Assembly (NCBI RefSeq): GCF_024345475.1
Contig: NZ_JAGQBE010000023.1
Span: 1-35,340, forward strand
Source: Cyanobium sp. T1B-Tous
GTDB lineage: Bacteria > Cyanobacteriota > Cyanobacteriia > PCC-6307 > Cyanobiaceae
Direction of reading: 5' to 3'
Length of the DNA stretch: 35,340 nt
Shown: piece by piece, positions 1 through 5,690 of the stretch
How the letters are laid out: every line of letters starts with the position of its first letter
Position numbering within the stretch: the first letter of the stretch is position 1
Translations under genes and position numbers: made by a program
The notes under the pieces: model-generated
The model's input: the letters and a program-made list of their open reading frames with translations, nothing else
Databases searched by the model: none
What the model was told of the DNA's origin: nothing

Positions 1-879
1 TCCTTCAAGGACCGGGGCATGACCATGGCCATTTCCAAGGCCAAGGAAGCGGGCTCGGAGGCGGTGATCTGTGCCAGCACCGGCAACACCTCCGCCGCCG
101 CGGCCGCCTATGCCCGCCGCGGCGGCATGCGGGCCTTCGTGCTGATCCCGGATGGTTATGTGGCCCAGGGAAAGCTGGCCCAGGCGCTGCTCTACGGGGC
201 CGAGGTGATCGCTATTCAGGGCAACTTCGACCGGGCCCTGGCGATCGTGCAGGACGTGGCGAACCAATACCCGATCACCCTGGTGAATTCGGTGAACCCC
301 TACCGGCTACAGGGACAGAAAACGGCGGCCTTCGAGGTGGTGGATGCCCTGGGTGAAGCGCCCGACTGGCTGTGTATCCCCGTGGGCAACGCGGGCAACA
401 TCAGTGCCTACTGGATGGGATTCAACGAATACAAGGCCGCAGGGCACTGCCGCCGGCTGCCACGCATGATGGGGTTCCAGGCGGCTGGCTCTGCCCCCTT
501 GGTGCTCGGCCACACGGTGGAGCAGCCCGACACCATCGCCACCGCCATCCGCATCGGCAACCCGGTCAACCGGGATAAAGCCCTGAACGTCCGCACTGAG
601 AGCGGTGGCGGCTTCATGGCGGTCACCGATGCTGAAATCATCGACGCCTACAAGCTGCTGGGCTCCGGTGAAGGGGTGTTCTGTGAACCGGCCAGCGCCG
701 CTTCCGTGGCCGGTCTGTTGAAGCGCCGGGACGAGGTGCCCGCCGGAGCCACCGTGGTGTGCGTGCTCACCGGCAATGGCCTCAAAGACCCCACCACCGC
801 GATCGAACACAACGACGCCCGCTTCCACACGGGCCTGGAAGCGGATACGGCGAAAGTGGCTGCCGTGATGGGCTTCTAA
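1..879 (+). CDS. thrC: Threonine synthase (3' part; 5' end outside window)
   Basis: PLP-dependent enzyme that converts O-phosphohomoserine to threonine, the last step of threonine synthesis. The reading frame is open from the first base and begins S-F-K-D-R-G-M, the family's PLP-lysine motif, with the Schiff-base lysine at bases 7-9. The internal ATG at 19 is therefore not the start, and roughly 50-70 N-terminal residues lie upstream of the window. About 292 residues are visible. They include the [14 protein letters not shown] substrate/phosphate loop near the start, the PVGNAGN phosphate-binding glycine motif, and a C-terminal [11 protein letters not shown] segment, all typical of bacterial ThrC. 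It ends with TAA at 877-879. It points towards the presumed origin and away from dnaN's promoter side, as remembered for picocyanobacterial origins. Confidence 0.95.
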
Positions 880-1279
880 ACCGGCCGTCCCCGACCAACC
901 AATGGACAAAGCGTCTGCTGGAAGCCTGGGGAAAACCAGCCCGACCCGGGGGACAGGCAGCCCACGCCGTCGCCTCGCCCAACTCGGCCGGTTTTCCCCA
1001 TGGACTGGAAAGAGCGGAAAACGGCGCGCTCCCCCCAGATCACTGGCACCAAACCCCAGCAGATCAGACCAAAAAACCCTTGTGCTGACTACTGTTTTTG
1101 AGGTTTTCCCCGATTCCCCCAGCCCCTACGACGACGGTTTGTTTTCTTCTCTTGAAATCCTTTAATCCGATGATCGAACAGGGCCTGGGGGACGGTTCAC
1201 CGGCGTTGCGCAATCAGCCCGCCTGTGGAAGCTTGGGGGCACCGTCCTCGCAGCCGTCAGGCCTGCCAGCCCAAACGCC
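880..1279. other. oriC: Putative chromosomal replication origin (oriC) between thrC and dnaN
   Basis: This 400-base non-coding gap is the longest in the window and sits directly upstream of dnaN, where cyanobacterial origins are commonly placed. Five motifs resemble the cyanobacterial DnaA box TTTTCCACA: TTTTCCCCA at 992-1000 (+) and 927-935 (-), TTTTCCCCG at 1104-1112 (+), TTTTCCGCT at 1013-1021 (-), and GCTTCCACA at 1224-1232 (-). Each differs at one or two positions. A T-rich tract at about 1134-1172, unusual in this GC-rich sequence, could be the unwinding element. The only open frames here, such as 902-1165, have low-complexity Arg/Pro/Ser content and no family resemblance. Assignment as oriC is inference from position and motifs. 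The dnaN promoter must also lie in here, but I could not pick a convincing -35/-10 pair. Confidence 0.6.
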
Positions 1280-2425
1280 ATGAAGCTGGTCTGTTCCCAG
1301 TCCGAACTCAGCACCAGCCTGCAGCTGGTGAGCCGGGCCGTGGCCAGCCGCCCCACCCATCCGGTGTTGGCGAACGTGCTGCTCACGGCCGATGCCGGCA
1401 CGGGCCGGTTGAGTCTCACCGGCTTTGATCTGAGCCTCGGCATCCAGACCAGCCTGCCCGCCAGCGTGGAAACCAGCGGCGCCATCACCCTTCCGGCTCG
1501 CCTGTTCGGTGAAATTGTCTCCCGCCTCTCGAGTGACAGCCCGATCACCCTGGCCTGCGCCGAAGGTACTGAACAGGTGGAGCTCACCAGCCTCTCGGGC
1601 AGCTATCAGATGCGGGGGATGCCCGCGGAGGATTTCCCCGATCTGCCCCTGGTCCAAAGCGGCACGCCGATTCGCCTGGAAGCCGATGCCCTGGTGAAGG
1701 GCCTGCGGGCCACCCTGTTTGCCAGCAGTGGCGATGAGGCCAAGCAGCTCCTCACCGGCGTGCATCTGCGCCTCGATCCGGCCGGGCTCGAATGCGCCGC
1801 CACCGATGGCCATCGCCTGGCCGTGCTGTGTCTCGCCCACGCCAGCGACCCCACGGCCGCCGCTGACGGAGAGCCCTTCGCCGTCACCGTGCCGGCCCGC
1901 TCCCTGCGGGAGTTGGAACGGCTGCTCTCCGGTCGCCAGTCGGACGAACCCCTCAGCCTCTTCTGCGACCGCGGTCAGGTGGTGTTTCTCTGGGCTGACC
2001 AGGTGCTCACCAGCCGCAGTTTGGATGGCACCTATCCGAACTACCGGCAGCTCATCCCTGAGAGCTTCAGCCGCACGATCAGCCTCGATCGGCGTGCCTT
2101 TGTCTCGGGTCTGGAGCGGGTGGCGGTGCTGGCAGACCAGCACAACAACGTGGTCAAACTCAGCGCCGAACCGGCCACCGGCCAGCTGGTGATCCAGGCG
2201 GATGCCCAGGACGTGGGCAGCGGCTCGGAAGCCCTGGCGGCCACCATTGAGGGCGACGCCATCCAGATTGCCTTCAACGTGCGCTACCTGCTCGATGGTC
2301 TCAAGGCCATGGCCTGTGACCAGGTGCTGCTGCAGTGCAACGCCCCCACCACCCCGGCGATCCTCACGCCCGCCGATGGGGCCCAGTTCACCTATCTGGT
2401 GATGCCCGTTCAGATCCGCAGCTGA
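1280..2425 (+). CDS. dnaN: DNA polymerase III subunit beta (sliding clamp)
   Basis: Ring-shaped processivity clamp that tethers the replicative polymerase to DNA and also binds repair and mismatch factors. The 381-residue product has the usual length of bacterial beta clamps (about 365-390) and reads through three clamp domains. It starts MKLVCSQSEL, has the conserved GMPAEDFPDLP segment near residue 115 and a TDGHRLA motif near residue 177, and ends YLVMPVQIRS, matching the conserved clamp C-terminus. The ATG at 1280 gives the standard N-terminal strand; there is no obvious Shine-Dalgarno sequence, which is common in cyanobacteria. It lies just downstream of the putative origin and is followed after 2 bases by the PRC-barrel gene, so the two are probably co-transcribed and translationally coupled. 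Confidence 0.97.
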   Translation: MKLVCSQSELSTSLQLVSRAVASRPTHPVLANVLLTADAGTGRLSLTGFDLSLGIQTSLPASVETSGAITLPARLFGEIVSRLSSDSPITLACAEGTEQVELTSLSGSYQMRGMPAEDFPDLPLVQSGTPIRLEADALVKGLRATLFASSGDEAKQLLTGVHLRLDPAGLECAATDGHRLAVLCLAHASDPTAAADGEPFAVTVPARSLRELERLLSGRQSDEPLSLFCDRGQVVFLWADQVLTSRSLDGTYPNYRQLIPESFSRTISLDRRAFVSGLERVAVLADQHNNVVKLSAEPATGQLVIQADAQDVGSGSEALAATIEGDAIQIAFNVRYLLDGLKAMACDQVLLQCNAPTTPAILTPADGAQFTYLVMPVQIRS

Positions 2426-3317: not shown

Positions 3318-5690
3318 GTGGTTGCTGCTTCAGAGTTCGCCCCCCCCGACTATTCGGTGCCCGAGGCGCTGAAGAAGGAGAACCTCAGCCAGGCCGACTA
3401 CGACGAGATCTGCCGCCGCCTCGGCCGCGCCCCCAACCGGGCCGAGCTGGGCATGTTTGGGGTGATGTGGTCGGAGCACTGCTGCTACCGCAACTCGCGG
3501 CCGCTGCTCCAGGGTTTCCCCACCACCGGCCCCCGCATCCTGGTGGGCCCCGGTGAGAACGCCGGTGTGGTGGATCTGGGCGAGGGCCAGCGCCTGGCCT
3601 TCAAGATCGAAAGCCACAACCACCCCTCGGCGGTGGAGCCGTTCCAGGGGGCGGCTACGGGCGTGGGCGGCATCCTGCGCGACATCTTCACCATGGGCGC
3701 CCGGCCGATCGCCCTGCTCAACGCCCTGCGCTTTGGCCCCCTGGAGGACGAGCGCAACGTGGGTCTGATGGAGGGGGTGGTGGCCGGCATCGCCCACTAC
3801 GGCAACTGCGTGGGCGTGCCCACCGTGGGTGGGGAGGTGGCCTTCGATGCCAGCTACTCCGGCAACCCGTTGGTGAATGCCATGGCCCTGGGGCTGATGG
3901 AAACCGAGGAGATCGTCTGCTCCGGCGCCGAGGGCGTGGGGTACCCCGTGGTGTACGTGGGCAGCACCACCGGCCGGGACGGCATGGGCGGCGCCAGCTT
4001 TGCCTCGGCCGAGCTCACCGAGGCCTCCCTCGACGATCGGCCCGCCGTGCAGGTGGGCGATCCCTTCCTGGAGAAGGGCCTGATCGAGGCCTGCCTGGAG
4101 GCCTTCCAGAGTGGTGATGTGGTGGCCGCCCAGGACATGGGCGCCGCTGGCCTCACCTGCAGCTGCTCGGAGATGGCCGCCAAGGGGGGCCTGGGCATCG
4201 AGCTGGATCTCGACAAGGTGCCCGCCCGTGAGGCCGGCATGACCCCCTATGAGTTCCTGCTGAGCGAATCCCAGGAGCGGATGCTGTTCGTGGTGAAGCC
4301 CGGCACGGAGCAGGCCCTGATGGCGCGCTTCACCCGCTGGGGCCTGCAGGCGGCCGTGGTGGGCCGGGTGCTCGAAGACAACATCGTGCGCGTGCTCCAG
4401 CACGGTGCCGTGGCCGCTGAGGTGCCCGCCAGCGCCCTGGCCGATGACACCCCCATCAACCACCACACCCTGATCAGCGAACCCCCGGCCGAGATCCAGG
4501 CCCACTGGCGCTGGAGTGAGGCCGAGTTGCCCGCCGAGTTGCCGTTCAGCTGGAACGACGCCCTGCTGGCCCTCCTGGACGATCCCACCATTGCCTCGAA
4601 GCGCTGGGTGTACCGCCAGTACGACCACCAGGTGCAGGCCAACACGGTGGTGCTTCCGGGCGGTGCCGATGCGGCCGTGGTCCGGTTGCGGCCCCAGCAG
4701 GGCGAGGGCGCCATGGTGGCGGCCACGCGCGGTGTGGCCGCGGTGGTGGATTGCCCCAACCGCTGGGTGGCCCTCGATCCCGAGCGCGGCGGCATGGCGG
4801 CGGTGGCCGAAGCCGCCCGCAACCTCAGCTGTGTGGGCGCAGAACCCCTGGCGATCACCGACAACCTCAACTTCCCCTCCCCCGAAACCCCCACCGGCTA
4901 CTGGCAGTTGGCCCTGGCCTGCCGCGGCCTTTCTGCGGCCTGCTCGGCCCTGGACACGCCGGTCACCGGCGGCAACGTGTCGCTCTACAACGAGACCCGC
5001 CTGCCGAACGGCACCATGCAGCCGATCCACCCCACGCCCGTGGTGGGCATGGTGGGCCTGGTGCACAACCTGCAGCACGTGCGCGGCCTGGCCTGGCGGG
5101 AGGCGGGCGATGCGATCTGGCTGTTGGGGGTGCCGCTGGAGGGGGGAGACACTCCCGCCGATGCGCGCCTGGGCCTGGCCGGCAGCAGCTACCTGGAGCG
5201 GCTCCATGGAGCCGTCACGGGGCGCCCGCCTGAGATCGACCTGGCGCTGGAGCGCTCGGTGCAGGCCTTCCTGCGCCAGGCGATCGCCCAGGGTCTGGTG
5301 GCTTCCGCCCACGACCTCAGCGACGGCGGCTTGGCGGTGGCCGCAGCTGAGGGCTGCATGGCTTCGGGTCTGGGTGCCCACCTGGAGCTTCCCGCCAGTG
5401 CGGCCCGGCTGGATCGGCTGCTGTTCGCCGAGGGCGGTGCCCGCATCCTGGTAAGCGTGGCGCCGAGCCAGGCGGCAGCCTGGCTGCAGGCCCTGGATCA
5501 GGCCCATGCGGCAGCTCCTGGCTCCGTGCCGGCCCAAGCGATCGGCAAGGTCACGGCGGCCCCGTCCTTCACCATCACCCAGGCCGGCAGCGTCGTGATC
5601 GAGCAGGCCGTTGCCGCCCTGCAAACCTGCTACGAGCAGGCCATTCCCCGGCGCATGGGGGCGCTGGTGCAGAATGAATTTTCACCGTGA
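3318..5690 (+). CDS. purL: Phosphoribosylformylglycinamidine synthase subunit PurL
   Basis: Synthetase subunit of FGAM synthase, the fourth step of purine synthesis; it uses ATP and ammonia delivered by PurQ. At 790 residues it is the small bacterial PurL type that needs separate PurQ and PurS proteins, neither of which is in this window. Features include [15 protein letters not shown] near residue 50, the substrate/metal motif [20 protein letters not shown] near residue 97, a central glycine-rich [18 protein letters not shown] segment, and DNLNFPSPE and [15 protein letters not shown] in the second half, consistent with duplicated PurM-like domains. The start is GTG at 3318 ([11 protein letters not shown]), preceded by a 140-base gap. 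The stop overlaps the purF start by 4 bases, so purL and purF are translationally coupled. Confidence 0.96.

Follow-up and report, generated by a model that had tools for sequence, protein, structure and literature searches.

Does the gap between thrC and dnaN in Cyanobium sp. T1B-Tous hold the chromosomal origin of replication, and what do its unusual DnaA-box-like sites mean? The window, i.e. the whole stretch of 35,340 nucleotides analyzed here (from contig NZ_JAGQBE010000023.1), includes this gap at positions 880–1279, which had been predicted to be an oriC with degenerate TTTTCC-type DnaA boxes. In the known cyanobacterial arrangement, described for 'most of the cyanobacteria', oriC lies beside dnaN and carries TTTTCCACA boxes (PMC4674748), and some cyanobacteria replicate without DnaA (PMC7198777). 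The gap occupies the same intergenic position beside dnaN, and in almost every related locus a match to the thrC frame precedes dnaN. Our evidence on the gap is comparative and drawn from sequence only. The conservation sample comprised the 80 loci encoding the nearest dnaN relatives, and counts across relatives overstate independence since ancestry is shared.

All four TTTTCC hexamers and the single TTCCACA core of the original prediction lie where it had placed them (Table 1), and its claim of an excess is borne out: four hexamers in 400 bp compare with 0.10 expected from base composition (none of 5000 shuffles reached four), and with 0.68 expected when dinucleotides were preserved (P = 0.003). 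Nowhere else in the window do 400 bp contain at least four TTTTCC. Among 40 sampled ~20-kb stretches of a complete congeneric genome, two places reached four, one of which was the thrC-dnaN gap. Across the whole window, TTTTCCACA-like 9-mers with up to two mismatches were not enriched (38 found versus 40 expected), while TTTTCCNCA occurred 36 times genome-wide (2.71 Mb, two copies in the gap) against 31 times for its reversed control; hence the signal is local, and it is the cluster that matters. The gap has no exact TTTTCCACA, the match usual in cyanobacterial oriC, its best being two sites with one mismatch; the boxes are indeed degenerate. Box 5 reads TT[CT]CACA in nearly all relatives (1224–1230; TGTG[GA]AA on the top strand), and this agrees with the general DnaA box TTWTNCACA over its final seven letters. 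An Rfam scan of 700–1500 returned no match.

Table 1. Features of the thrC-dnaN region, in coordinates of the window.
Feature	Position	Strand	Basis
thrC 3' part (threonine synthase)	1..879	+	ORF with stop at 879; left border of gap; name from the original prediction
Candidate oriC, thrC-dnaN intergenic region	880..1279	no strand	Box cluster, conservation, instability, congener skew
DnaA-box-like site 1, TTTTCCCCA, C7	927..935	-	Least conserved among the TTTTCC sites
DnaA-box-like site 2, TTTTCCCCA	992..1000	+	C7 in 82% of the 86-sequence close-relative set
DnaA-box-like site 3, TTTTCCGCT	1013..1021	-	A7 in 55% of the 86-sequence close-relative set
Weak box-like site X, CAAACCCCA	1050..1058	+	Alignment; consensus TTTTCCACA in low-GC relatives
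DnaA-box-like site 4, TTTTCCCCG	1104..1112	+	Motif search and alignment
Site 4b, ATTCCCCCA, abutting site 4 as a tandem pair	1113..1121	+	Consensus NTTTCC[CA]CA
GC-rich spacer GCCC	1122..1125	no strand	Sequence
DnaA-trio-like repeat CTACGACGACGG	1126..1137	-	Top CTA CGA CGA CGG = lower 3'-GAT GCT GCT GCC-5'
Candidate unwinding element, top strand pyrimidine-rich	1138..1175	no strand	Least stable DNA of the window
CGTTGCGC[AT][AT] element (CGTTGCGC = 1204-1211)	1204..1213	no strand	Nearly invariant in alignment
Box 5, GCTTCCACA	1224..1232	-	TT[CT]CACA hardly varies among 81 sequences
dnaN (beta clamp)	1280..2425	+	ATG start supported by conserved MKLVCSQS

A comparison of thrC-dnaN gaps, proposed as a check on the original prediction, showed that the TTTTCC sites keep their position and orientation in most of the 80 related loci, recurring at approximately equal distances. 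The cluster of DnaA-box-like sites is thus local, conserved and beyond chance, as in a dnaN-linked oriC. Aligning the relatives also brings out site X, box 4b and the CTACGACGACGG repeat, together with a T-rich stretch and two elements that hardly vary. We noted that the latter, CGTTGCGC[AT][AT] and TGTG[GA]AANCGTGGG within 1204–1237, are conserved more strictly than the TTTTCC boxes.

The genome to which the window belongs is fragmented into 122 contigs, and skew was taken from sampled stretches of relatives. The complete genome G049, of the same genus (40 sampled ~20-kb stretches), has one clear switch of both GC skew and AT skew, located between two stretches whose junction lies 140 bp upstream of the dnaN start; the best two-arm fit puts the origin at 2.32 Mb, with dnaN at 2,324,760. 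In 43 of the 53 loci with sufficient flank, the right side of dnaN had a higher GC skew than the left. Skew in G012, a complete genome of another genus sampled at 20 places, was weak and irregular with a best fit away from dnaN; irregular skew is common among cyanobacteria (PMC7198777). Within the window, helix stability reaches the lowest values of all 35 kb in the 30 bp from 1138 and the 40 bp from 1136, directly after the triplet repeat. The same genome has one intact DnaA gene, on contig C76, which along its length matches DnaA chains of solved bacterial structures. Because the sites are conserved, a probable unwinding module follows box 4 (see below) and the congener switches skew at dnaN, the gap is very probably the oriC, as in other cyanobacteria; the dnaN neighbor, the helical instability, the trio-like repeat and the single DnaA gene strengthen the predicted assignment further.

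TTTTCC sites also cluster outside the gap. A three-site cluster on contig C13 (26212–26320; TTTTCCCCA on the plus strand, then TTTTCCACA and TTTTCCCCA on the minus strand, with starts 58 and 42 bp apart; 5213–5321 of locus L082) lies upstream of a small gene resembling a high-light-inducible protein gene (hli), and CAGCAGTGGTGATC comes after it. Most of the good genomes in the genus share its spacing exactly or nearly so, with different DNA in between. A loose spacing pattern found such a cluster in 10 of the 16 genomes of the genus, as matches of 108–110 bp, and its reversed control found none; the locus could be seen to be the same only in some (by the hli gene in G049 and a shared neighbor gene in G043), and the match in G318 is of another kind. 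The cluster does not lie at the skew switch, and it was rejected as a rival origin: in G049 it is ~790 kb from dnaN. The C13 cluster resembles DnaA-binding clusters outside origins. Similar three-site geometry was observed in G045, G318 and genus g10 (loci L304, L305, L210 and L211, ~1501–1607 in each), adjoining other genes where neighbors were viewed. On contig C101 (L083, 4610–4663), two inverted TTTTCCCCA sites lie inside an inverted repeat that is long and imperfect, and CAGCAGTGCTGATC comes next. The motif in its loose form has nine copies in the genome.

How might this origin open? In the published unwinding module, DnaA bound to tandem boxes extends onto a single strand with 3'-GAT-5' repeats (PMC8287927). 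The gap shows the same order: box 4, the abutting box 4b, the 4-bp spacer GCCC, the CTACGACGACGG repeat and the weakest helix. Two of the features that define the basal unwinding system (BUS), namely one or two DnaA boxes joined to the trios by a short GC-rich spacer (here the tandem at 1104–1121 and the spacer at 1122–1125) and unstable DNA right after the trios, are present; the third is a run of at least three consecutive trios with a central A, and only the first of the window's four trios has one. This order, together with the skew switch in the congener, also bears on whether the sites could instead form a regulatory region of dnaN, controlled by DnaA or otherwise. All of them lie within 360 bp upstream of dnaN and the nearly invariant elements at 1204–1237 are close to its start, as such a region would have it, but the agreement with the published order, from the tandem boxes through spacer and repeat to the weakest helix, and the congener's skew switch make it very improbable, and we retain the origin as our reading.

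The repeat itself varies in a regular way among relatives. In 120 species, the first base of the top-strand triplets is nearly always C, and the center of the first trio is T in 117. At centers 2–4 the top strand has T 157 times, G 191 times, A 8 times and C 4 times; hence the trio center stays A or C on the contacted strand. In GC-rich members the central adenine of that strand gives way to cytosine, while the flanking G stays fixed and a central G or T is rare. Adenine and cytosine both bear an exocyclic amino group. On a dnaN tree of 101 taxa, parsimony gave ~42 changes at the three inner centers, ~34 of them between T and G, these counts being rough. Low-GC relatives carry CTACTACTACT, the canonical trio form. 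Counted in one register only, all 11 species below 35% GC have T at the first three centers, compared with none of the 61 above 56% GC (here and below, GC percentages are those of the gap region rather than of whole genomes).

Such a dependence would follow if GC pressure merely set the letters at tolerant positions while the mode of DnaA action stayed unchanged, and low-GC Prochlorococcus-like genomes do keep CTACTACTAC trios whereas GC-rich relatives do not. However, the trio centers take G for T and hardly ever C, unlike the neighboring columns: G:C is 191:4 at the centers versus 152:58 in the next six columns. The authors of the trio model noted that trios without a central adenine may exist (PMC8287927). 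The window's repeat falls outside the published trio rule and probably functions like a member. We put at about even the chance that it is a variant trio, 3'-G[A/C][T/C]-5', in which C is tolerated for the central A on the contacted strand.

We also surveyed the boxes, as TTTTCCNCN sites, in which position 8 is C by site choice; position 7 was mostly C or A, and position 9 was free. Outgroup cyanobacteria with at least 47% GC in the gap have TTTTCCACA at 21 of 23 such sites, two S. elongatus-like genomes among the outgroups (51% GC) at 13 of 13, and low-GC Prochlorococcus-like genomes at 19 of 29. The fraction is 5 of 50 in GC-rich picocyanobacteria with Thr at residue 435 of DnaA (E. coli numbering, assigned by alignment) and 10 of 250 in the close-relative set of 86 sequences. 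We refer to the latter as the Ser set, Ser being the residue at this position in those of its genera that were read; it includes MAGs whose DnaA was unread, and L202 (G163), whose DnaA has Thr. The retention of TTTTCCACA in low-GC genomes again agrees with GC pressure, but the S. elongatus-like outgroups retain it at 51% GC. GC pressure alone fails on these outgroups and on the near absence of C at trio centers; as the account of both boxes and trios it is possible but rather doubtful.

The original prediction had read the preference for CCCCA over CCACA as a possible shift in DnaA specificity. In E. coli, Caulobacter crescentus and Helicobacter pylori, the weak boxes to which ATP-DnaA binds are known to be marked by C at position 7 (C7; PMC8235120). 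In the gap, sites 1, 2, X, 4 and 4b carry it, and their likeliest meaning, which we hold with even confidence, would be ATP-DnaA-type boxes. Among the papers searched, none joined ATP-DnaA boxes with cyanobacteria. C7 boxes are common in GC-rich members of the family, including those with Thr435, whose boxes already have few TTTTCCACA; a change from Thr435 to Ser was thus ruled out as the sole cause of C7. D433, said to read box position 7 (PMC8235120), is unchanged, residue 438, which is M in this DnaA, is likewise M or L among the outgroups, and box 5 keeps A at position 7 (A7) throughout. The suggested shift in specificity is therefore not borne out as the explanation of the boxes.

Residue 435 itself does differ. 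The DnaA of the window's genome (contig C76; L085, 4371–5804) has Ser at this position, in the recognition helix (GGKDHSTV). Among the matches listed, Ser435 was found in every genome read of genera g1, g7, g8, g10, g11, g13, g14, g23, g25, g26, g30 and g31, all near the window's own, and Thr435 in the other genera read; Ser435 appears to mark a subclade among picocyanobacteria. Most genera encode it by TCN but one nested clade (g7, g13, g25 and g26) by AGC, and Ser may therefore have had more than one origin. When sites at similar GC are compared, the share with A7 is lower in the Ser set (50 of 135) than in the Thr set (34 of 50; Fisher P = 2e-4), but with one or two origins of Ser the relatives compared are not phylogenetically independent, hence this difference is a lead. 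It is what would be expected if T435S made DnaA favor or accept C7 and any base at position 9, a reading that we consider unlikely given the C7 boxes of Thr435 relatives, although some shift may accompany the subclade marker. We also noted a Lys-to-Gln change at the alignment position of E. coli Lys443, another difference from the compared DnaA sequences.

Given the position of the gap, its conservation, the congener skew switch, the instability and the substitution pattern, we infer a path from DnaA binding to strand opening. Either nucleotide form of DnaA would bind a few A7 sites, namely box 5 and, in many relatives, box 3, whereas the C7 sites 1, 2, X, 4 and 4b would be filled by ATP-DnaA. 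From the tandem pair 4/4b, by way of the GC-rich spacer, DnaA would continue onto the lower strand of the repeat at 1126–1137 and open the weak stretch from 1138, towards dnaN. GC-rich picocyanobacteria would then have exchanged their row of strong TTTTCCACA boxes for a set made up mostly of weak C7 boxes, with DnaA-trios that tolerate C for the central A on the contacted strand. For this group as a whole, a working trio variant 3'-G[A/C][T/C]-5' (A or C accepted, G or T not) combined with an origin run mainly on ATP-DnaA-type boxes seems to us as good as evenly balanced.

The location of this very probable oriC is ordinary, and its boxes and presumed opening-site triplets have drifted regularly from the textbook forms across more than 100 related species. 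Origin finders that require TTTTCCACA-like boxes and three central-A trios would miss or underrate GC-rich picocyanobacterial origins. The aligned set supplies natural variants for asking which trio-center base DnaA needs, and for asking whether boxes of the ATP-DnaA type can be the main ones on which an origin runs. If the variant trio is real, it would exemplify the deviant trio suspected by the authors of PMC8287927.

Among known systems, the gap is most readily set beside the dnaN-linked oriC of Synechococcus elongatus PCC 7942 and other cyanobacteria (DoriC; PMC4674748; PMC7198777): it lies beside dnaN, has TTTTCC-type boxes in both orientations, has a skew switch nearby (in the congener), and dnaA is elsewhere on the chromosome. 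Unlike the S. elongatus type, it is without exact TTTTCCACA, mostly C7 and variable at position 9. It shares with the BUS of B. subtilis incC (PMC8287927; PMC6669920) the tandem boxes, the 4-bp GC-rich spacer, triplets with an intact first GAT, the AT-rich DNA and the polarity; unlike incC, trios 2–4 of the window have C for A at the center on the contacted strand. C at position 7 recalls the ATP-DnaA boxes of E. coli, C. crescentus and H. pylori (PMC8235120), but, unlike in those systems, most recognizable boxes of the window's origin are of this C7 type.
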